Positions 8,522 to 29,511 of a DNA stretch of 32,357 bases are shown one piece after another; the first letter of the stretch is position 1; each line of letters opens with the position of its first letter. This stretch comes from Deltaproteobacteria bacterium RIFOXYD12_FULL_56_24 (lineage in GTDB: Bacteria > Desulfobacterota > Desulfobulbia > Desulfobulbales > Desulfurivibrionaceae), in assembly GCA_001799285.1 (NCBI GenBank), contig MGTD01000031.1, forward strand, positions 1-32,357, read 5' to 3'. Below the pieces are notes generated by a model. That model searched no databases. It was not told the DNA's origin and worked only from the letters and a program-made list of their open reading frames with translations. A program made the translations under genes and the position numbers.

Positions 8522-8650
8522 TCGTATAACAACTGAAAAACGTAACGCCAAGACGCAGACGCGCAAACGCGCAAAGGCAACATGTTGAAATAAAAGGATT
8601 AAAATTTTGCGTCTTTGCGCCACTGCGTTAAACAATGAGTTGTTGCGAGT
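8522..8650. repeat. Repeat family B, copy 1
   Basis: Near-palindromic element of about 129 bases lying between the kup stop and the kamA start. Ends match as inverted repeats: CGTATAACAACT at the left and AGTTGTTGCGAG at the right. Inside, GTAACGCCAAGACGC on the left faces TTTGCGCCACTGCGTTA on the right, with a shared middle (catgttgaaataaaaggatt). Copies 2 (20165) and 3 (21648) share the whole pattern. With no transposase it looks like a MITE or a large REP-like hairpin. Confidence 0.8.
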
Positions 8651-12149: not shown

Positions 12150-12353
12150 TCAGTTCTCCTCGCTATCCGCTGGCTGATCTGGCTCGGCTCCTTCCGGAAG
12201 CTCCTTTTTGCACCCAGAGGGTATAAGTTTCGTTTGAGCAGACAAGCTGCTCAACTCAGCTTTATCCATCAGGTTTTGCTTCTTTTCCTCTTTCTTTTTT
12301 TTCTTTGCCAGTTCTCGCTGCCGTTTTTCGTACTGATAGTTCGGTTTTGCCAC
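12150..12353 (-). CDS. Small lysine-rich protein carrying an in-frame repeat C
   Basis: 67-residue protein starting at a GTG (12353). The N-terminus MAKPNYQYEKRQRELAKKKK resembles a small, highly basic conserved protein of unknown function found in many proteobacteria. Residues 31-50 (KAELSS…QTKLIPSGCKK) are encoded exactly by a copy of repeat C (12204-12263); the acidic tail after it (DQPADSEEN) looks like the normal family ending. So the repeat appears to have entered the gene in frame without breaking it. The ribosome site is weak (GGTGA). It lies between flagellin and cmoB on the same strand. No function is proposed. Confidence 0.65.
   Translation of the reverse strand: MAKPNYQYEKRQRELAKKKKKEEKKQNLMDKAELSSLSAQTKLIPSGCKKELPEGAEPDQPADSEEN
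12204..12263 (-). repeat. Repeat family C, copy 1 (inside a coding gene)
   Basis: 60-base short form on the minus strand, nearly identical to the intergenic copy at 20259-20318. It holds two hairpins: TTGAGCA facing TGCTCAA, and TATACCC-TCT-GGGTGCA. It is read in frame as residues 31-50 of the small protein, in the same orientation and frame as the copy in the acyl-CoA synthetase gene. Confidence 0.85.
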
Positions 12354-12395
12354 GTTGTCACCATGTCTGGTTGAGGGTTTATTTGTGTTGACGGT

Positions 12396-13355
12396 TTATG
12401 GGTTCACCGCCCTGAGAAACACCCGCAAGGGGGCCGGGTAGCCTTCCACGGTCAGGGCCGGGTTGTGGGGGTCGAGGAAATCCTCGTAGGATTCAAAGGT
12501 CATCCAGGCTGTTTTTCGTTGTTCCTCGCTGCTCATTGGGTGGCAGCAAAAGATTTCCACTTCGGTAAAGCCGGTGCGGAGCAGCCAGTTGCGCAGGCAG
12601 TTGGCCGTGGGCACGAAATAGGTGCCCGGCACCTTGGCGTAGCGTTCCTCCGGGAAAAGGGCCACCGGGGCCTCGCCCGGAATGGCCTGGGATTCTATGA
12701 TTAACACGCCGCCCGGCCGCATGGCTGCCCGGATCTCCCGCAGCATCTCCACCGGCGAGATGCGGTGGTAGATGATGCCCATCAGAAACACCACATCAAA
12801 ACAGGAAGAGAAAAGGGGGACATCCTCCACCCCCATCAACTCGATAAACAGCTCGTCGGCTTTTGCCAGGCGGCGGAGGGTCTTGAAACAGTAATAATGC
12901 TGGAGAAAGGGCTCCAGGCCGACCACGCAGCGTGGCTTGTGCGGCAGCATGCGAAACATGTAGTAGCCGTTGTTGCAACCGATATCGGCCACCACCTTGC
13001 CGGCGAGGTCGGGCAGAGCGGGGAGCAGCCGGTTCCATTTGCGCCAGCTCTGCCATTCCGCGTCGATGTCAACTCCGAACACCTTGAAAGGCCCCTTGCG
13101 CCAGGGCATGAAACTTTGCATGGCCTCATGCACCAGGCCAAGGTCCGCTTCGCCCAATTCTTCGGCCAAGCCGATGGTCACCGCCTCCGTGCTGTAATCG
13201 GTGACCCTGGCGTGCAGATGGCGCAAGGACTCATAGGGTTCGCGGAAGCGCAGAAAGCCTTTTTTGGGCTGGGCCAGCAGGGCAGCCGTTTCCGCCCGTC
13301 GGGCGCGGATGGCCTCTTGGTTGGCGGTTTTCAGCAGGTCAAGATAATCGCGCAT
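12396..13355 (-). CDS. cmoB: tRNA 5-carboxymethoxyuridine-34 synthase CmoB
   Basis: 319 residues, the usual CmoB length. It transfers the carboxymethyl group of carboxy-SAM to 5-hydroxyuridine 34 in tRNA, widening wobble decoding. Hallmarks are SFMPWRKGPF (81-90), EWQSWRKWNRL (100-110), the cofactor loop DIGCNNGYYMFRML (124-137), and LMGIIYHRISP. The C-terminal half has FVPTANCLRNWL and TAWMTFES, also typical. CmoA, which makes carboxy-SAM, is not in the window. It starts 19 bases after the yhbY stop on the same strand, so the two probably form a translation-related operon. GAAGG upstream of the ATG supports the start. Confidence 0.93.
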   Translation of the reverse strand: MRDYLDLLKTANQEAIRARRAETAALLAQPKKGFLRFREPYESLRHLHARVTDYSTEAVTIGLAEELGEADLGLVHEAMQSFMPWRKGPFKVFGVDIDAEWQSWRKWNRLLPALPDLAGKVVADIGCNNGYYMFRMLPHKPRCVVGLEPFLQHYYCFKTLRRLAKADELFIELMGVEDVPLFSSCFDVVFLMGIIYHRISPVEMLREIRAAMRPGGVLIIESQAIPGEAPVALFPEERYAKVPGTYFVPTANCLRNWLLRTGFTEVEIFCCHPMSSEEQRKTAWMTFESYEDFLDPHNPALTVEGYPAPLRVFLRAVNP

Positions 13356-13374
13356 GGACGAACCTTCGCGCTGA

Positions 13375-13698
13375 TTATTTAATGGACGGCAGCTTGATCT
13401 TCTTGTCCTCTTTCAGCTCCTTGTTCTCGCGAAAGAGCAGGAAGGTCTTGCCGATGATCTGGGCGATTCGGCTTTTGCTTTTTTGGGCCAGCAGCTCGGC
13501 GGCCTCCTCCCTGGCGTAAGGGCAGCCGTCCTGGATCTTGACCTTGACCAGTTCGTGCGCGGTAAGCACTGCTTCCAGCGCCGCGGTGAGATTGTCGGTA
13601 ACGCCATCCTTGCCGATCATGACCAGGGGGGAAAGATGGTGTCCCAGGCCGCGCAGGTGGCGGCCCTGTTTGCCGGTAAGATGCATTTTTTTGTTCAT
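13375..13698 (-). CDS. yhbY: YhbY-type CRM-domain RNA-binding protein
   Basis: 107 residues forming a single CRM domain: LTGKQGRHLRGLGHHLSPLVMIGKDGVTDN, with the GxxG-type loop in GKDG, then ELVKVKI and the hydrophobic strand IGKTFLLFREN. YhbY proteins bind pre-50S ribosomal particles and help assembly. A basic tail extends slightly past the usual end. It is followed by cmoB after 19 bases, making a likely two-gene operon on tRNA and ribosome maturation. The upstream gap (13699-13975) holds repeats E and D. Confidence 0.92.
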   Translation of the reverse strand: MNKKMHLTGKQGRHLRGLGHHLSPLVMIGKDGVTDNLTAALEAVLTAHELVKVKIQDGCPYAREEAAELLAQKSKSRIAQIIGKTFLLFRENKELKEDKKIKLPSIK

Positions 13699-13758
13699 GT
13701 TTTTTTCCTGAACCGTTGTAATTAAGATATTATCGCCGTCCTGATATCAGAGGCGGCA

Positions 13759-13815
13759 TAAGGAGTCGTCACAAAACGCCCAATCGCGGCGAGAGTTCTT
13801 CGTAACGGCGCCTAA
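13759..13815. repeat. Repeat family E, copy 2
   Basis: 57 bases with inverted ends TAAGGAGTCGTCAC and GTAACGGCGCCTAA. Same size and same ends as the copies at 10880 and 21904, but with a different spacer. It directly abuts repeat D (13819), as copy 1 is close to another D element. Confidence 0.65.
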
Positions 13816-13818
13816 AAG

Positions 13819-13973
13819 GTAAGCGGTCACAGGGCACCACATCTTGCGGCGATCGGCCCGGCTCACGTACCTGATGTACGCATCGCCGTCCCGCTTGCCG
13901 CAACCTGCGGCACCCTGTGGCCGCTTATTCCGTGGTTATTTGACCCTTGTGGGCTTACCCCGTGATCGATTAC
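13819..13973 (+). repeat. Repeat family D, full-length copy
   Basis: 155 bases with terminal inverted repeats GTAAGCGGTCAC and GTGATCGATTAC. Inside, TAAGCGGTCACAGGG (13820-13834) is matched in inverted orientation by CCCTGTGGCCGCTTA (13913-13927), 14 of 15 positions. A central GTAC-6 bases-GTAC lies between GGCGAT and ATCGCC arms. The right end stops two bases before the stop codon of the TraB-domain gene, so it forms that gene's 3' flank. No coding capacity; looks like a MITE. Confidence 0.8.
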
Positions 13974-13975
13974 CT

Positions 13976-15172
13976 CTAAAAGAGGTTGGAGATAATCCTG
14001 GAGCCGCCGACCCACATTCCGGCCATGGCGCCAAAGCTTGGCAGCATAAAGGCGAGGAAAAGACGCAACAACCGATTGCGCCACCAGCCGCGCACAGTGC
14101 CCATGTCCTTAAGAACGGTTTCAAACTCAATCACCAGCGGCGGCTGGGCCATGACCTGGATAAAGGCCGTGAGATGCCCCACGCCGAGCACGGGTAGCAG
14201 GGTGGTGACGGGCGCTCCCACAAAGGCGCCGAGGATGGTGAGTGGATGGGCCAGCGCCAGGACCGCCCCAAAAGCGGCGGGAAGGCCGGTGGCCAGAATC
14301 CAGAACAGCAGATTGTCCCCGGCCACTGCCGTGCCCTTGGTAACCGCGATCACCACCAGAGCGAGAACAATGAGGGCGGGAATGGCCCAGCCGACCACCT
14401 GCCAGATAGGAGAAACGGGCGGAATTATGTTGATGGCCTCCAGCTGATCGCGGCGGTCTTCGCCGAGCGCCGTCTTGATCCCGGCCACATGCCCGGCTCC
14501 CACTACGGCCACCAACCTACTGCCTTTGCTGGCCTTGATCTTTTCCGCCAGGTAGGTGTCCCGCTCGTCAATAAGCACCCGCTTGAGTTCGGGCATGGCC
14601 TGGCCGAGCTCGCTGAGCAGCTCGGAAAGAACATCGCTCTCTTTCAGCTCCCGCAGCTTGTCCTCGGTAATCTCGGTCTCTTCGAACATGCTGGTGAGAA
14701 TACTGGCCAGCAGATAATTCTTGCGCCAGAACGAGGTGGAGTTCCAGGCCCGGCGCAGGGTGACTCGAACATCCCGGTCGCAAAGGGCCACGGGAATTCC
14801 GTATTTTTCCGCCTCCTGCACCGCCTCCAGCAGTTCGGTGCCCGGCTTGACCCCCATCTGGTCGCCGAGCCTTTTCTGGTAGGAGGCCAGGAGCATGTTG
14901 ATCAGCAGGGTGGAGAGCTGTTTTTTGCGGATGATCTCCCGCAGATCGAGAAGCTCCCAGGTCTTGCGCTTGGCCAGGGCCTCGTAACGCTTCTCGTCCA
15001 GCTCAACGCAGACGCAGTCCGGCTTTTCGCCGGCAATGACCTGGCGGACCAGCTCCACGGATTCCCGGGAGATATGGGCCGTGCCGATCAAAAAGATTTC
15101 CCGCTCGCCCAGCTTGAGGCAATGGACGTCCGGGGGATAATTGGGGGCGGTAACCGTCGTGGATTCAGTCAT
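13976..15172 (-). CDS. TraB/PrgY-domain membrane protein
   Basis: 398 residues. The N-terminal two thirds is a TraB/PrgY (GumN/TIKI-related) domain: LIGTAHISRESV with the GTAH motif at 30-33, CVELDEKRYEAL, and VVGAGHVAG near residue 230. The C-terminal third has several hydrophobic membrane helices (WAIPALIVLALVVIAV, LLFWILATGLPAAFGAVLAL, LLRLFLAFMLPSFGAMAGMW). The family is related to metallo-peptidase-like TIKI proteins; PrgY limits pheromone activity in enterococci, but the bacterial role here is unknown. Repeat D ends two bases after the stop. It lies downstream of the acyl-CoA synthetase gene, 12 bases after its stop is counted from the other side, same strand. Confidence 0.85.
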   Translation of the reverse strand: MTESTTVTAPNYPPDVHCLKLGEREIFLIGTAHISRESVELVRQVIAGEKPDCVCVELDEKRYEALAKRKTWELLDLREIIRKKQLSTLLINMLLASYQKRLGDQMGVKPGTELLEAVQEAEKYGIPVALCDRDVRVTLRRAWNSTSFWRKNYLLASILTSMFEETEITEDKLRELKESDVLSELLSELGQAMPELKRVLIDERDTYLAEKIKASKGSRLVAVVGAGHVAGIKTALGEDRRDQLEAINIIPPVSPIWQVVGWAIPALIVLALVVIAVTKGTAVAGDNLLFWILATGLPAAFGAVLALAHPLTILGAFVGAPVTTLLPVLGVGHLTAFIQVMAQPPLVIEFETVLKDMGTVRGWWRNRLLRLFLAFMLPSFGAMAGMWVGGSRIISNLF

Positions 15173-15184
15173 ATTTTTTTATGT

Positions 15185-16957
15185 TCAGCAGTTCTGGGGG
15201 CTGCTGGTGTAGAGATAGCGTTTTATCTTATGAGTCGCAGTCTTGGTGAATGGCTCCCGGTGTTCCCTCACCTGGGCAAGCTGCGCATACGGGGGTAGCT
15301 TAAGGTTTACCTGTCTTTTGATTTCCGTCAGGATCTCGGCAATATGTTCCAGTTGCCGGGATTGTTCCTTGCCTCTGGTTTTCGCGTCGATCATTTCGTA
15401 ATCCAGATAGACCAAGGCTTCCAGCCGGTTGTTGCATTCGCGCACCAGCGATTCCACTACCTGCTGGAAGGCGTTGATCTTCTCTTCGATTGTCTCGGGA
15501 TAGATATTCTCACCGTGGGAAAGGACAATGACGTTTTTGGAGCGCCCCTTGATAAAGAGATTTCCCTGCCGGTCAATAAAGCCCAGATCGCCGGTGGCCA
15601 GCCAGCCTTCCTGGTCGAGGACTTCTTTGGTTGCCTCGGGATTGTTGCGGTATCCCTGCATTACATTGGCTCCCCTGGCCATGATTTCGCCCAACCCTGT
15701 TTCGGGATTTGCCTTGCTGATTTTAACCTCCACCCCCTGCACCGGCTTGCCTGCCGAGCCCAAAGCGATGCTTGGGTCGCCGTATGGCCCGGCGCTGACT
15801 ATGGGGGAGGCTTCGGTCAAGCCGTAGCCGACCAGGTAAGGGAATCCTGCCTCGGCCAGGAATCGTTCCACCTCGATGTTGAGGGGAGCCCCGCCGATGG
15901 CGATAAGTTTAAGCCTGCCTCCGAAAAACAGCTGTAATTTTTTACCGATTTTTTGCAGGATCTTTCGGCGGAGCAGGGGCATCTTCATGGCCGCCCGCAT
16001 GAGCACATTGGCGTTGATGACCGGCAGGACTTTCTTTTTGTAGATCTTCTCCATGACCATGGGCACCATGCACATGGTGGTGGGCTGTTCCTGCTTGCAG
16101 ATCCGCTCCAGCACGGTCGGGGTCGGGGTCTTGCCGGCATAGACGATGCGGGAGCCGGTGGCCAGCGGCACCAGGAAGCTGGTGGTGAACTCATAGGCGT
16201 GGGACATGGGCAGGATCGAAAGAAAGGTCCAGCCCTGCACCGGCTCAACGGCAAAGACTGCCAGGGTGGCGCGAACATTGCTGATAAAGTTTTTATGACT
16301 CAGCATCACCGCCTTGGCGTGGCCCGAAGTGCCGGAGGTGTAGATGATCGAGGCGGTGTCCTCCGGGTCGGTCGGACATACGGGCGGGGATTTTTTACAC
16401 CCAAAGGGTATAAGTTTCGTTTGCACCCTGAAGGGCATAAAATCCGGCGAGCTGCTCAACTCAGCTTTATTTTCCGGCAGATCCCCTGCGGCGGCAAGAA
16501 ATCGGCTGAAGGGGATGGTGGTCACGAGGTTGTTCTGATCGGCGGCGTCATCCAGGGTGATTACGGCTTTTAATTTGTTGCCGGTAAGCCCATAGAGTTT
16601 TTCCAGCTGGCGCTGGGTGGTGAAAAGGATTTTTACCCCGGCCTCGTTCAGGATATGCTTGACGTCGGCCTCCGGAAAATCCGGGAGAATCGGGACACCA
16701 ATCGCTCCCAATCTGATGATGCCGAAGTAACTCATGCCCCACTGGGGAGAGTTGTCGGCGAGAATCGCCACCCGGTCGCCTTTTCTGATGCCGTGTTCCC
16801 TGAGCAGGGCTGCAACCTGCAGAGCCTTCTGCTGGAACTCTTCATAGGGAATGGGCGGCTGAAAGGCGAAGCCTACCGCGGGCAAGTGGCCAAAGGATCG
16901 GGCACTTGCTTCCAAGAGCAGGTTTAAGGTTGTTATGGTGGAGGAGATCATGGTCAT
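15185..16957 (-). CDS. fadD: Long-chain acyl-CoA synthetase (AMP-binding) with in-frame repeat C insert
   Basis: 590 residues; activates fatty acids to acyl-AMP and then acyl-CoA. The P-loop motif YTSGTSGHAKAV (206-217), the YGLTEASPIVSAG motif, the TGDLG hinge region and a C-terminal lysine region (FTKTATHKIKR) are present. Residues 164-189 (KAELSS…QTKLIPFGCKK) lie 16 residues before the P-loop and are not expected in the family; they are encoded by repeat C (16391-16468). The frame is kept, so the enzyme may still be made, with a longer loop. No Shine-Dalgarno is visible before ATG 16957 or the ATG six bases inside, and repeat A copy 2 sits only about 15 bases upstream. Exact chain-length preference is not readable. 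Confidence 0.9.
   Translation of the reverse strand: MTMISSTITTLNLLLEASARSFGHLPAVGFAFQPPIPYEEFQQKALQVAALLREHGIRKGDRVAILADNSPQWGMSYFGIIRLGAIGVPILPDFPEADVKHILNEAGVKILFTTQRQLEKLYGLTGNKLKAVITLDDAADQNNLVTTIPFSRFLAAAGDLPENKAELSSSPDFMPFRVQTKLIPFGCKKSPPVCPTDPEDTASIIYTSGTSGHAKAVMLSHKNFISNVRATLAVFAVEPVQGWTFLSILPMSHAYEFTTSFLVPLATGSRIVYAGKTPTPTVLERICKQEQPTTMCMVPMVMEKIYKKKVLPVINANVLMRAAMKMPLLRRKILQKIGKKLQLFFGGRLKLIAIGGAPLNIEVERFLAEAGFPYLVGYGLTEASPIVSAGPYGDPSIALGSAGKPVQGVEVKISKANPETGLGEIMARGANVMQGYRNNPEATKEVLDQEGWLATGDLGFIDRQGNLFIKGRSKNVIVLSHGENIYPETIEEKINAFQQVVESLVRECNNRLEALVYLDYEMIDAKTRGKEQSRQLEHIAEILTEIKRQVNLKLPPYAQLAQVREHREPFTKTATHKIKRYLYTSSPQNC
16391..16468 (-). repeat. Repeat family C, copy 2 (long form, inside fadD)
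   Basis: 78 bases on the minus strand. It matches the 60-base form at both ends. In the middle it carries an extra segment, TTTTATGCCCTTCAGGGTG, that repeats the second hairpin unit (CTTATACCC-TTT-GGGTGTA), so it looks like a form with that hairpin doubled. It is a multiple of three and keeps the fadD frame. Confidence 0.85.
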
Positions 16958-16969
16958 ATGGTCATCAAT

Positions 16970-17060
16970 TTTTGTTGAAATCGCAAAAAAACCGCGATTA
17001 CAACGGTTGTCATTCTGTAACTTTTTGATTTCGTGTCGCGGACATGTGACTTCTTTCCCT
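16970..17060 (+). repeat. Repeat family A, copy 2
   Basis: Hairpin GTTG-A-AATCGC (16974-16984), 9-base loop, GCGATT-A-CAAC (16994-17004), followed by ggttgtc, gtaactttttgattt and gtgtcgcggac as in copy 3. It fills the whole gap between the acyl-CoA synthetase start and the hybrid kinase stop. Confidence 0.8.
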
Positions 17061-17062
17061 TA

Positions 17063-20056
17063 TTACCGGACCAGCAATTTTTCCAGGGTCTGGTACAGCT
17101 GCTGACTGTCCACGGGTTTGGTCAGATACTCGTCCATGCCGGCTTCAAGGCATTTTCCCCGGTCTACATCGGTGGCCTTGGCGGTGAGAGCAATAATGGG
17201 CAGGTCAAGACGCAGAGCCCGGCGGATGGCCATGGTCGCAGTAAGTCCGTCCATCACCGGCATCATGACATCCATCAGCACGGCATCATATGTTTTGGCA
17301 GGCAGCGCGGCAAGCGCCTCCTGGCCGTTGCCCGCTATATCAACCAGAATGCCGACTCTTGTCAAGAGTTGACTTGTCACCATCTGGTTTACCGGGTTGT
17401 CTTCTACCACCAGTACCTGCTTGCCGGCCAGGCTCTCGAACTGTTTTCTGTCGTTTCCCTCCGGAGGAGAAAGTGCGCAGGACTGGGTTGAGCCTATTCC
17501 AAGACATTCGGCAATGGCTTTGTACAGGTCTGACTGCTTAAGCGGCTTACTCAGGAAAATTACTCCTGGGCAGGCCTTGTAGTCGTCTTCAAGGGCTGCC
17601 TCCTGGTCGAGCTGAGTTAGGATTATGACCGGAGTAAGATGAACGTCCGCTTGGTTGGTATCGCGCTTTTTTAGAAGAAGGGACAGGTTCAGCCCAGGAA
17701 GGGAACTGTCGATAACAAGAAGCGCATATTCCTGGGTCAGTTGGGCAAGGAATGTCGGTGAGTCATTTTCTTCAGACGGGGGGAGTATTTCTGCCTGGCA
17801 ACCGAAGTCGGAGAGCATCTTAAGCAAGGTTTCCCCCAGGGCCGGATGATCTGTCGCCACCATAACCCTGGCGTCGGCAGCTGAGGCAGGAAGAATTATG
17901 GGGTGTTGGGATTCCTGGGGCTGCAATTTAACCTTGATGGTGAAATGGAAAGTGCTGCCCCTGCCCGGTTCGCTTTCTGCGTTGATTTCGCCGCCCATCA
18001 GGGTGACCAGCTGCCTGCTGATGGCAAGACCAAGGCCGGTTCCCCCGTAAAGCCTGGCGGTTGAGCTGTCTGCCTGGGAGTATTCGTTGAAAAGCTGCTT
18101 GATTTGGTCATGGTTTATCCCGCTGCCGGTGTCTCGCACGGAAAAATGCAGTACCGCCTCGCCATCATTCAATTTTCCACAGCGAACCCTGACAGCGACC
18201 TCTCCTCTTTTGGTGAATTTGATAGCGTTGCCAATCAGATTGATCAGAATCTGCCGCAGGCGCAGAGCGTCTCCCCTCAGGGCGCAGGGCGTATCGCCGT
18301 CCACACGGATCAGCAATTCGAGGTCTTTGTCGGCGGCCTGCTTGCCGAACAGGTCCGCAAGGCTTTCCATGGTTTCCCGCAAATCAAAATTGGTGCACTC
18401 GAGATCAAGTCGGCCTGCCTCGATCTTTGAGAAATCGAGGATGTCGTTGATCAGGGCAAGCAACGCCTTGCCGGAGTCCTGGATAATGGCGAGGTATTGT
18501 TGCAATTTTGCTGTTTCCGCCATTTTTGCCGCCATGTTCGCCATGCCGAGGATGGCGTTCATCGGGGTGCGGATTTCATGGCTCATGGAGGCGAGAAATT
18601 GAGATTTTGCCTTGCTGGCCGCATCTGCCCGGGTTTCCGCTTTTTGCCTTTCCAGGACTTCCCTGGCAAGGTTCTCATTGACCCGGCTCAGGTCGGCGGT
18701 TCGTTCTTCAAGCAGAGATTCCAGGGAATGTTTAAACTGTTCCATATCCCGAAAGGTTTTCTCCAACTCACCATGGGCTTCTTCCAGTTGCCTGGCATAG
18801 ACGTTCTGCAGCTGCTCTTTTCCCTGCTTCATGAGCTGGAAACGATCGGCAAGGCCCATGGACAACAGGATGACCTCCCAGGCCGAACCGAATTGGATGC
18901 CCCAGTGGGTAATGAAGGTATGGGGCAGAATGCCGAAGGTCTTAAGGGCAAACACCGTTACTCCCAGCATGGAGACAGACCAGGCCAGGAGATAATAACG
19001 GGCCGGGCGGGAACCTTTGCGCATGCAGATAAAGCCGGCAACGATCAGGGCAACAACGGTCAGGCTCATCAGGGTTGCCAAACGGATGCTCAGGGGGTAG
19101 CCGACAAAAAAAGTCAAAATGGCGCCGATTGCGGAAAGAGCCAGACCTGCCAGGAGAATGGCGTCAAGGCGGGGGACATTTTTTGCCGTATCAAGAATTT
19201 TTCGCGTGAACTGGGTGGCGAAGATGTAGGCGAGGAAAATAAAAAATGGCGTGCAGTTATTGGCCCACCAGATCTGGCTGGGCCAGAAATACTGGAAAGC
19301 CATGCCGTTGACGCTCAACTGGAACATCATATAAGTAAAAACAAAAAGGACGTAGTATAAATAGGTGCTGTCCCTGATGCTTAGATAAATGAAAAAATTG
19401 TAGATCATCATGACCAGCAGAATGCCGTAATAGATGCCTAACATGGTCTGTTCCAGGCTGATTCCTTCGGCCAGGCCGACAGGGGAATACAGGATGAGCG
19501 GCAAGTTCAGGGAACTTGTCGTCTCGCAGCGGAGATATATGGTTTTCTCTTCGCCCGGCAGAAGCCGGATGGGGAAAATGTTGTTTTTGTGCTGGATGGC
19601 CCTGTTTTCGAAGGGGAAGCTGTCGCCGGCCTTGAGAACGATGAAGGCGCCGGTGTCGGCGGGGGTATAAAGGTATATCCGGTCAAGAAGAGGATATTTT
19701 GCTTCGAGAAAGTATTCCACGAAATTGGGCAGGCTGTTTTGTACGGTAAAACGAGCCCAGACCGCCGAGGTGGTAAATCCGAAGCTGGGAATGCCGGTGG
19801 TTGCAGGGGCAAAGCGGGCTTCGGCTTGTTTGGAAACGATGTCGGTGATTGTAAGGTTTCCGGCAGGATCTTCAAGGAGTTCTAGATGTTTCGCCAGGGG
19901 GTATGAGCTTTCCTCCGGAACAAGTAGCACCGGCACAGGCATGGCCTGGATAGCTGTCGGCGCGGCGAGGAGGCAAAAAAATGCGAAGCATAGGAGCCCG
20001 CACCTAATCATGAGATTAGGGAAACAGAAATGCATCCAGCTTGTGCATGGTTGCAT
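17063..20056 (-). CDS. Hybrid histidine kinase: 7TMR-DISM sensor, HisKA, HATPase, two receivers
   Basis: About 997 residues from ATG 20056, which has AAGGG 8 bases upstream; the frame is open to a TTG at 20125. Numbering here starts at that TTG. A signal peptide (LLCFAFFCLLAAPTAIQA) leads to a periplasmic 7TMR-DISMED2-like domain (about 65-215). Seven membrane helices (about 225-425) and a coiled coil (about 430-500) follow. The HisKA box SHEIRTPMN has phospho-His H516. The HATPase domain has NLIGNAIKF, DTGSGI and GGTGLGLAIS. A first receiver-like domain (about 753-875) keeps an aspartate (VIDSSLPG) and a lysine (LSKPL), but its acidic pocket reads VATDHP, so it may be weak. The second receiver (902-1020) is canonical, D952 in LMDVMMPVMDG. 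An inner-membrane sensor for an unknown, possibly carbohydrate-like, ligand. Confidence 0.93.
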   Translation of the reverse strand: MQPCTSWMHFCFPNLMIRCGLLCFAFFCLLAAPTAIQAMPVPVLLVPEESSYPLAKHLELLEDPAGNLTITDIVSKQAEARFAPATTGIPSFGFTTSAVWARFTVQNSLPNFVEYFLEAKYPLLDRIYLYTPADTGAFIVLKAGDSFPFENRAIQHKNNIFPIRLLPGEEKTIYLRCETTSSLNLPLILYSPVGLAEGISLEQTMLGIYYGILLVMMIYNFFIYLSIRDSTYLYYVLFVFTYMMFQLSVNGMAFQYFWPSQIWWANNCTPFFIFLAYIFATQFTRKILDTAKNVPRLDAILLAGLALSAIGAILTFFVGYPLSIRLATLMSLTVVALIVAGFICMRKGSRPARYYLLAWSVSMLGVTVFALKTFGILPHTFITHWGIQFGSAWEVILLSMGLADRFQLMKQGKEQLQNVYARQLEEAHGELEKTFRDMEQFKHSLESLLEERTADLSRVNENLAREVLERQKAETRADAASKAKSQFLASMSHEIRTPMNAILGMANMAAKMAETAKLQQYLAIIQDSGKALLALINDILDFSKIEAGRLDLECTNFDLRETMESLADLFGKQAADKDLELLIRVDGDTPCALRGDALRLRQILINLIGNAIKFTKRGEVAVRVRCGKLNDGEAVLHFSVRDTGSGINHDQIKQLFNEYSQADSSTARLYGGTGLGLAISRQLVTLMGGEINAESEPGRGSTFHFTIKVKLQPQESQHPIILPASAADARVMVATDHPALGETLLKMLSDFGCQAEILPPSEENDSPTFLAQLTQEYALLVIDSSLPGLNLSLLLKKRDTNQADVHLTPVIILTQLDQEAALEDDYKACPGVIFLSKPLKQSDLYKAIAECLGIGSTQSCALSPPEGNDRKQFESLAGKQVLVVEDNPVNQMVTSQLLTRVGILVDIAGNGQEALAALPAKTYDAVLMDVMMPVMDGLTATMAIRRALRLDLPIIALTAKATDVDRGKCLEAGMDEYLTKPVDSQQLYQTLEKLLVR

Positions 20057-20164
20057 GATTATTGCCCTTGTGTTTCCGTGACCCAAGAGGGAGAATAGAA
20101 ATGCCTTCAGTATCAACATGGACAATGATGGCCTCGCAAAAAAAGGAAAGCAGTCAAAGGTGCT

Positions 20165-20332
20165 GGACTCGTAACAACTAAAAAACGTAACGCGAAGGCG
20201 CAGAGACGCAAAAACAACATATTGAAATAAAAGGATTAAAACTTTGCGCCTCTGCGTTAAAGCTGAGTTGAGCAGCTTGCCTGCTCAAACGAAACTTATA
20301 CCCTCTGGGTGTAAAAAATGACCTACGAGTCC
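20165..20332. repeat. Repeat family B, copy 2, interrupted by repeat C
   Basis: Perfect terminal inverted repeats GGACTCGTA (20165-20173) and TACGAGTCC (20324-20332). The left body matches B copies 1 and 3 (GTAACGCGAAGGCGCAGAG facing TTTGCGCCTCTGCGTTA). After GCGTTAAA the B sequence is broken by repeat C and resumes at AAATGACCTACGAG, exactly where copy 3 reads straight through. This is a nested insertion. Confidence 0.85.
20259..20318 (+). repeat. Repeat family C, copy 3 (nested in repeat B)
   Basis: 60-base short form, plus strand. Hairpins TTGAGCA-7 bases-TGCTCAA and TATACCC-TCT-GGGTGTA are both intact. Frame 1 is open end to end and would read KAELSS…QTKLIPSGCKK, the same peptide as in the two coding copies, although no gene covers this copy. 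Confidence 0.85.
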
Positions 20333-21534: not shown

Positions 21535-21638
21535 TTTGATAAAATCGCAAAAAGTCGCGGTTATAACGGTTGTCGCTTCGTAACTATTTGATTTTGTGTC
21601 GCGGACCTGTGACCTGTTTTCCTTTTTACGAGCCGATC
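21535..21638 (+). repeat. Repeat family A, copy 3
   Basis: Hairpin AATCGC (21543-21548), 8-base loop, GCGGTT (21557-21562); the A-to-G change on the right arm still allows a G-T pair. The 3' part (aacggttgtc, gtaactatttgatttt, gtgtcgcggacctgtgacc, tttttacgag) aligns with copies 1 and 2. Repeat B copy 3 follows at once. Confidence 0.8.
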
Positions 21639-21647
21639 TTATTTGAT

Positions 21648-21767
21648 GGACTCGTAACAACTAAAAAACGTAACGCCAAGACGCAGAGATGCAAAGGCAA
21701 CATGTTGAAATGAAAGGATTAAAACTTTGCGGCTTTGCGCCTCTGCGTTAAAAAATGACCTACGAGT
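21648..21767. repeat. Repeat family B, copy 3 (uninterrupted)
   Basis: Ends GGACTCGTA (21648-21656) and TACGAGT (21761-21767) are inverted repeats. The internal arms GTAACGCCAAGACGCAGAG and TTTGCGCCTCTGCGTTA match copy 2. Because nothing interrupts GCGTTAAAAAATGACC here, this copy shows what copy 2 looked like before repeat C entered. Confidence 0.85.
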
Positions 21768-29048: not shown

Positions 29049-29079
29049 GGTATGATGCCGGTCAAAAGATTTGAAGGAT

Positions 29080-29139
29080 AAAGCTGAGTTGAGCAGCTTG
29101 CCTGTCCAAACGAAACTTATGCCCTCTGGGCGGAATAAG
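29080..29139 (+). repeat. Repeat family C, copy 4 (intergenic)
   Basis: 60 bases with AAAGCTGAGTTGAGCAGC and acgaaactta intact; the right arm of the first hairpin (TGTCCAA) and the second hairpin (GCCC-TCT-GGGC) have drifted, but the second still pairs because both closing bases changed or were kept. It lies just upstream of trxC, in the opposite orientation to that gene. Confidence 0.8.
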
Positions 29140-29333: not shown

Positions 29334-29511
29334 GTAAGCGGTTACAGGGCACCACATCTTGCGGCGATCAGTCCGGCTCATGTACAAAAGTACGCATCGC
29401 CGTCCCGCTTATAGCTGAGTTGAGCAGTTTGCCTGCCCATACGAAACTTATACCAGAAGAGTGATTCCGTGGTTATTTGACTTCAGGGGCATTCCTCCCG
29501 TGATCGGTTAC
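29334..29511 (+). repeat. Repeat family D copy, interrupted by repeat C
   Basis: The left part (29334-29410, GTAAGCGGTTACAGGG through CATCGCCGTCCCGCTT) and right part (from about 29462, attccgtggttatttgac to GTGATCGGTTAC at 29500-29511) match the full D element. Between them, repeat C copy 5 replaces the segment that holds the second internal palindrome arm. Confidence 0.75.
29411..29459 (+). repeat. Repeat family C, copy 5 (nested in repeat D, truncated)
   Basis: About 49 bases: ATAGCTGAGTTGAGCAG, TTTGCCTGCCCATACGAAAC and TTATACC, then divergence at AGAAG. The second hairpin is lost. It is the most degraded C copy, so it is probably the oldest or was cut by later rearrangement. Confidence 0.75.

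Follow-up and report, generated by a model that had tools for sequence, protein, structure and literature searches.

The stretch of DNA analysed here, called the window throughout, is bases 1-32357 of contig C31 (MGTD01000031.1) from Deltaproteobacteria bacterium RIFOXYD12_FULL_56_24, a genome of 3.04 Mb in 67 contigs that is 95% complete. It contains copies of a short hairpin repeat, repeat C, two of which lie in frame within protein-coding genes. An AMP-binding acyl-CoA synthetase gene resembling fadD (15185..16957, minus strand; PF00501) carries a long form of the element, TAA plus 72 nucleotides (nt), at 16395..16469 on the minus strand; this adds 24 codons, KAELSSSPDFMPFRVQTKLIPFGC, between DLPEN and YTSGTSG. 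A gene for a small lysine-rich protein of 67 residues (12150..12353, minus) carries the standard form, TAA plus 54 nt, at 12208..12264 (minus), which adds the 18 residues KAELSSLSAQTKLIPSGC. A first-pass annotation had reported both copies, and both are present, on the minus strand and in a common frame. The lengths that it gave, 60 and 78 bases, are too long because they take in an A-rich flank also present in uninserted relatives; the net lengths, 54 and 72 nt, do retain the proposed multiple of three.

The remaining copies in the window are intergenic and on the plus strand. That at 20258..20314, the source of the search consensus, is preceded by another repeat (...CTCTGCGT); that at 29079..29135 lies upstream of and antisense to a thioredoxin-family gene, whose ATG comes after the element. 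Both had been recognised correctly, and the third, at 29410..29466, is a diverged copy within a larger intergenic repeat (CCGTCCCGCTTA...GTGATTCCGTGGTTATTTGAC). Near the yhbY start is an empty TAA site (13723..13725, plus); the orthologous site in sister genome G013 (locus L261) is filled.

Repeat C is a dispersed family. A left-arm pattern with up to two mismatches finds 172 matches (87 + 85) in the host genome and five with the reversed pattern as control; a right-arm pattern with up to three mismatches finds 174 (95 + 79), and its control one. These control counts rule out chance. The 60-nt consensus gave 45 matches in the same genome (40 of 181 candidates scored). Consensus and arm searches together place at least 138 sites there, and a script applied to 138 sites returned 164 matches, 136 of them with both arms. 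The set used below comprises 227 arrays from 16 genomes of the family: 127 from the host genome and 100 from 15 relatives, whose loci were taken from the best-scoring places. By unit number, 199 arrays are single, 21 double, and seven triple; by preceding sequence, 163 are "core" arrays and the other 64 sit embedded within larger intergenic repeats of three kinds.

Each element encodes two hairpins, one beginning 7 nt from the left end and the other adjoining the right end. Folded as single-stranded DNA, the consensus forms both (-10.6 kcal/mol, z = -4.4), and the hairpin positions are paired in 91% of cells in an alignment of 104 copies. The ends in that alignment, AGCTGAGTTG and CACCCAGAGG, are not complementary: there are no terminal inverted repeats. 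Tandem copies are spaced 54 nt apart and joined via the right-end YAA. Net length is divisible by three in 157 of 163 core arrays, and likewise in 19 of 21 and six of six embedded arrays in two of the larger repeats, but in only seven of 37 in the "type 1" repeat.

Comparison with orthologues, which the first-pass annotation had proposed, found the peptide absent from all 12 aligned FadD relatives (14 loci were found, and the two most distant left out), from all five orthologues of the lysine-rich protein, and from all 19 MnmE relatives that cover a third insertion site (loci L317-L320 were left out of the alignment). At the empty fadD sites, 3 nt are left in nine of ten BLAST pairs (L172 gives -9); for the lysine-rich gene, L166 and L167 leave 3 nt, L169 and L176 leave 2, and L173 gives -2. 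Empty relatives thus commonly keep 3 nt where carriers have 57 (or 75), and the net insertion is therefore 54 (72) nt, or 18 (24) codons. Eight orthologous empty sites were available: FadD, the lysine-rich protein, IspA, the yhbY start region, L099, L223, L239, and L249. The IspA site is filled in G013 and empty in G000, where the start is identical. (One further pair, L214 and L158, was dropped; the sequences do not align.) The FadD relatives come from metagenome-assembled genomes titled Deltaproteobacteria, Proteobacteria, Desulfobulbaceae, Desulfurivibrio, or Desulfobulbus; Desulfurivibrio falls within the Desulfobulbales.

Across the 16 genomes, 22 genes contain the element in the sense frame, KAELSS...KLIP.GC (the start of one, FliP, is uncertain), and three contain it in an antisense frame. 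By array, the host genome has nine sense and one antisense among 63 core arrays, and the relatives have 20 and two among 100. The in-frame genes are backed by family matches or homologues; the names YfcE, RfbB, HdrA, IspA, and ClpA are readings of Pfam matches. Eight of the sense insertions are internal: FadD; the lysine-rich protein; a DUF2582 protein (two species); MnmE; the arginyl-transferase ATE, 13 residues from the start; SUI1/YciH (two species); MnmA, with three units following ESQDICFL; and a peptidase-U32 protein, where the insert lies outside and beyond the Pfam domain. The MnmE carrier is the sole full-length match in its genome among the matches listed, and alignment to a solved MnmE places the insert in a gap within the G domain. 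The MnmA insert falls between two aligned stretches. FadD matches PF00501 over residues 17-436 (265 bits). Its structure model, built on a 12-row alignment, is poor (mean predicted local distance difference test score, pLDDT, 62), and residues 162-220, including the insert, score below 50; the insert is not modelled as ordered.

Eight more sense insertions lie at gene starts: LpxI; Ddl, with one, two, and three tandem units in three species; an RfbB-like dehydratase; FliP; a YfcE-like phosphoesterase; a LuxR-type response regulator; IspA; and an HdrA-like protein (two species). LpxI and the phosphoesterase have no start codon between element and domain, and the first start codon past the element in Ddl is 16 residues on. 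RfbB, IspA, FliP, the response regulator, and HdrA have a start codon also available past the element; in three of them, RfbB, the response regulator, and HdrA, the start before the element has a Shine-Dalgarno-like GGAG or GGGAG ahead of it. The final six are tail additions, to SelA, a solute-binding protein (two species), FlpD (two genera), FtsJ, a ClpA-like ATPase, and a 4Fe-4S protein.

The antisense genes encode an APH-family kinase (its site is empty in G011), a multicopper oxidase with two units, and a cytochrome (L093) that reads MKWF, then the insert, then a signal-like hydrophobic stretch. The basic part of a signal sequence normally sits just before its hydrophobic stretch. In both the oxidase and the cytochrome, the basic peptide TPRGYKFRLSRQAAQLSF directly precedes the hydrophobic stretch, and this signal-sequence-like position may explain its tolerance there. 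(Separately, a reverse embedded copy lies between two domain matches of an O6-methylguanine-DNA methyltransferase frame, L164:2078-3256:-.)

The phase of insertion sets the outcome. An element entering at NNT/AAN reads KAELSS...GC; entry at an in-phase TAA gives an immediate stop; and entry at NTA/ANN gives K-L-S-stop. In the antisense direction, one phase of three reads through. Within 382 kb of likely coding sequence in the host genome, sense TAA occurs 986 times in the read-through phase and 744 in the stop phase, and antisense TAA 1390 times in the read-through phase and 1098 in the stop phases. Given these counts, neutral TAA insertion followed by removal of broken genes would leave 41% of in-frame genes in the sense frame, an expectation that shifts if the target is looser than TAA. 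The observed fraction is 22 of 25 (p = 2.0e-6). It is 22 of 26 if the embedded L164 is included (p = 7.9e-6), and 19 of 23 if FliP, the response regulator, and HdrA, whose starts are in doubt, are removed (p = 6.6e-5). These counts suggest either that proteins tolerate the sense peptide more readily than its antisense counterpart or that entry itself is biased.

The final gene set was chosen by judgement. A coding-score script by itself gave 24 sense and 17 antisense rows, and most of the latter mirror a sense gene that occupies the same position. Sense rows L098, L132, and L246 were removed (no family, or a low score on one side), and L138, L150, L181, L207, L237, L253, L264, and L196 were added on the basis of family matches, homologues, or start context. 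Antisense frames were examined with Pfam for 20 of the host genome and two of the relatives, and by eye for the rest of the relatives. Genes whose start lies, or possibly lies, past the element were excluded (sense L119, L123, L140, L146, L159, L163, L212, L217, L221, and L238; antisense L071, L098, L114, and L133), and FliP (L181) was kept although a start past the insert is also possible.

As the first-pass annotation had expected, copies in genes are not mostly frame-breaking. The 25 arrays with a good coding score on both sides comprise six in-frame read-throughs, seven arrays between opposite strands, and 12 on one strand with no open frame of that phase running through. Eleven of these 12 (including L086 and L201) look like gene junctions or in-frame tail additions; the twelfth, L123, yielded no open reading frame, and its downstream frame has its own ATG. 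The consensus frame had also been described as free of stops, which is true of the sense frame; the antisense frame is open too, and is used in L239, L255, and L093.

Many copies also meet the end of a gene. By rough gene calls, 25 arrays have an upstream co-directional gene that stops at the element's TAA, and three have one that stops at the other-phase TGA, whereas random entry near gene ends would give similar numbers. This excess suggests that TAA stop codons were hit by insertion; in every stop case with an aligned orthologue of equal end, that orthologue is also filled, so the original stop may or may not have been TAA. At the lpxI locus, the element's TAA ends the upstream frame (271 residues) and the element's own frame adds 18 residues to LpxI; L220 resembles this case, one insertion serving both genes. 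(At L203, the element separates two genes: the upstream frame closes on its TAA, and the frame of a ParE-like toxin opens directly past it.)

What does the element enter? In carriers, 107 of 135 single core copies have TAA as the left triplet; on the right, 62 have CAA and 45 have TAA. In a set of 103 distinct single core copies, 97 have T as the left base, the right-end base is C in 47 and T in 41, and the left and right triplets are identical in 31. The right-end base seems to be borne by the element, because it correlates with internal variants at three of five positions tested (p 0.003 to 0.010). Where the triplets are unequal, the first base of the empty site or empty repeat copy agrees with the left in four cases (L239, L261, L072, and L126), with the right in one (L179), and with neither in one (the lysine-rich protein). 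Since four of six match the left, the comparison leans to the left flank as the target. Three of the eight empty sites read TAA: yhbY, and L099 and IspA once the edge is shifted by at least one base from the BLAST edge.

Together, these sequence patterns make it very probable that repeat C is a non-autonomous mobile hairpin element that behaves like the Rickettsia palindromic elements (RPEs) and is tolerated in proteins. TAA would mostly be the target, so that a stop codon struck co-directionally stays a stop. Selection would then remove gene-breaking inserts, leaving in-frame copies in conserved proteins along with copies at gene ends and between genes. As the mover, a single-strand enzyme of the HUH/Y1 type is a tentative candidate, somewhat short of an even chance; it is suggested by the subterminal hairpins, the absence of terminal inverted repeats, the failure of the right end to copy the left flank, and the head-to-tail arrays.

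Several results weigh against this account. Three genes use the antisense frame. Hairpin covariation does not rise above shuffles in the 104 copies, because the copies vary too little in sequence. The other empty sites read GAA or CAA, AAA, TGA, TGC, and GA (L223), so either the target may be looser than TAA or the relatives may have changed. No transposase is tied to the element: 25 of 27 family genomes have Y1_Tnp, element-free ones among them, and 30 Y1 loci, inspected together with flanking sequence of up to about 1.5 kb, contain neither a right arm nor a two-armed copy. (Left-arm-like matches at some of these loci have two to three mismatches and look like chance.) No strand bias along contigs is clear by eye, though single-strand insertion might give one. 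Finally, mobility and translation are both predicted from sequence.

A stronger form of the mobile-element account is that repeat C is selfish DNA whose very rule of insertion spares genes: its fixed length is a multiple of three, its TAA target restores stop codons, and its open sense frame fits NNT/AAN. This is possible but rather doubtful, weighted down because only three of eight orthologous empty sites read TAA. If true, the element would occupy core genes of free-living bacteria across the order, adding 18 residues per visit and up to three units (Ddl, MnmA).

A classical miniature inverted-repeat transposable element (MITE), which a DDE transposase would move while duplicating a target of 3 bp that is often TAA, would also account for the net 54 nt and for the 3 nt that remain at many empty sites, and some copies are indeed flanked by TAA on either side where the empty site reads TAA as well (case 42 and, for repeat copies, case 153). 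It is nevertheless unlikely, given the lack of terminal inverted repeats, a right triplet that so often differs from the left, and a right-end base that seems to belong to the element. Alternatively, the hairpins, which are stable and often near gene starts and ends, could act in mRNA on stability or translation, with in-frame copies as a by-product. Same-strand intergenic core copies number 61 sense and 36 antisense, but 43 and 36 once 18 stop-codon cases are subtracted. (An early impression that all same-strand copies are co-directional was weakened by this tally of all copies.) With covariation at the level of shuffles, and orthologous sites filled in one species and empty in another, an RNA-level role is distinctly unlikely. 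A repetitive extragenic palindromic (REP) element moved by a REP-associated Y1 transposase (RAYT) would account for hairpin repeats in more than 100 copies, and Y1 proteins of RAYT-like length (about 280-320 residues) do occur in the high-copy genomes G000, G011, and G013. This explanation is very unlikely, however: the GTAG/GTGG head is absent from the consensus of the 104-copy alignment, the 30 Y1 loci show no flanking pair of copies, and REPs are described, in the part of PMC3733652 consulted, as 20-40 bp long.

Is the peptide used, or tolerated? Synonymous and nonsynonymous differences number 12:46 in 25 in-gene copies and 46:226 in 102 others (p = 0.57, with limited power), and 16 of the 102 copies outside genes have a stop in the sense frame. 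Within these sample limits, the peptide is as variable in genes as outside them, and looks tolerated, not maintained. That it is useful as a linker, tag, or binding motif and kept by selection is highly improbable despite the sense bias, the tandem growth in Ddl, and filled sites common to more than one species (Ddl, FlpD, the solute-binding protein, HdrA, SUI1, and the DUF2582 protein), for that ratio is alike in genes and elsewhere (again with limited power), the carriers have no evident common function, and the examined orthologues of FadD, the lysine-rich protein, and MnmE manage without it.

The family proved larger than first noted, and order-wide. Matches occur in 48 of 257 genomes, 20 of 69 genera, and nine families of the order (209 genomes are without a match), in 16 of 27 genomes of the family, and in 15 of 17 of the genus. 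First-look candidates number 142-195 in G177, G212, G213, and G216. A looser pattern found 33 arrays in 20 stretches from nine genomes of five other families; one array in G177 is in frame, with two units, past a CxxCxxCC domain. Viral contigs gave no exact pattern match, and plasmids no match. Copy number is high in some genomes, with few or no copies in near relatives, a patchy pattern that suggests horizontal spread or repeated loss. The earlier description of a selfish element tolerated inside proteins is thus supported by this spread and by the lack of constraint on the peptide; its mobility is deduced from comparison of sequences.

Repeat C also keeps company with other repeats. A larger intergenic repeat (...GAGCAGGCTGATA/CAACGCAGATGCGG...) is found both with and without the 54-nt core (L072, L077, L078, L120, L126, L139, L149, and L157 in the host genome, compared with L227, L246, and L208 in relatives); the core apparently inserted into this repeat and afterwards was carried along, or degraded, with it. 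Mosaics join the left half of the element to another repeat's end (...ACGAAACTTGATGAACT or ...ACGTAAATTGATGGACT); this different right end occurs at L066, L088, L098, L103, L110, L122, L136, L151, L152, and L161. Two further dispersed repeat families lie in the window, one at 1538-1618, 16986-17066, and 21549-21629, the other at 8524-8619, 20161-20256, and 21644-21739.

Among known systems, the REP family and its mosaic arrays (BIMEs, bacterial interspersed mosaic elements) have the GTAG/GTGG heads listed in the consulted part of PMC2817692. Repeat C resembles REP/BIME with RAYT in being a high-copy hairpin repeat, partly in mosaics, and differs in having no such head, no flanked rayt at the 30 Y1 loci, 54 nt, and two different hairpins. 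Elements of the IS200/IS605 group carry hairpins near both ends and use a short fixed target. Their non-autonomous relatives offer a likeness, in that repeat C has subterminal hairpins and lacks terminal inverted repeats, but no partner element with matching ends has been identified. (IS200/IS605 elements themselves lack terminal inverted repeats and make no larger target duplication, according to the same part of PMC2817692.) ERIC/RU-1, YPAL/RU-2, RU-3, and the 107-bp Correia element are intergenic mobile repeats whose open frame is at times fused in frame to genes, as the excerpts of PMC2229807 and PMC2759123 describe them. By those descriptions, RU and Correia elements exceed 100 bp, and many RU fusions extend the tail of a protein or fall in small or putative ones; repeat C, unlike RU, enters the MnmE G domain and the FadD AMP-binding domain, and lies between MnmA domains.

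The closest counterparts by behaviour are RPE-1 to RPE-3 and the Wolbachia palindromic element (WPE), described in parts of PMC10969869, PMC2229807, and PMC3767692 as small palindromic repeats found between genes and in frame in conserved genes, whose reading frames stay open; a review passage calls the frequency of RPE in-frame fusion unusually high. Repeat C shares this distribution, mostly intergenic and otherwise in frame in conserved genes (22 sense and three antisense). However, the RPEs so described are about 100-150 bp with a long stem-loop, whereas repeat C has 54 nt net and two short hairpins. The R. japonica insert is, in the portion of PMC3767692 consulted, at the same locus in each orthologue, whereas repeat C has filled and empty sites and tandem change between sister species. 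RPE hosts are Rickettsiales; repeat C hosts are metagenome-assembled Desulfobulbales of free-living type. The likeness to RPEs drawn by the first-pass annotation accordingly holds for behaviour and fails for anatomy, repeat C being shorter and in another lineage: likened by descriptions, it belongs beside the RPEs by what it does and is set apart by how it is built.

A literature search, with subscription journals mostly outside it, found among the papers listed no report of such an element in the Desulfobulbales. In the literature covered, core proteins that frequently carry mobile repeats in frame are a trait of Rickettsia and Wolbachia. An order of environmental bacteria now shows the same behaviour, and because its species differ in which sites are filled and which are empty, the target, the tolerance, and the effect on enzymes become directly testable. 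Repeat C thereby provides a natural set of 18-residue insertions in conserved enzymes, including MnmE, Ddl, and IspA.

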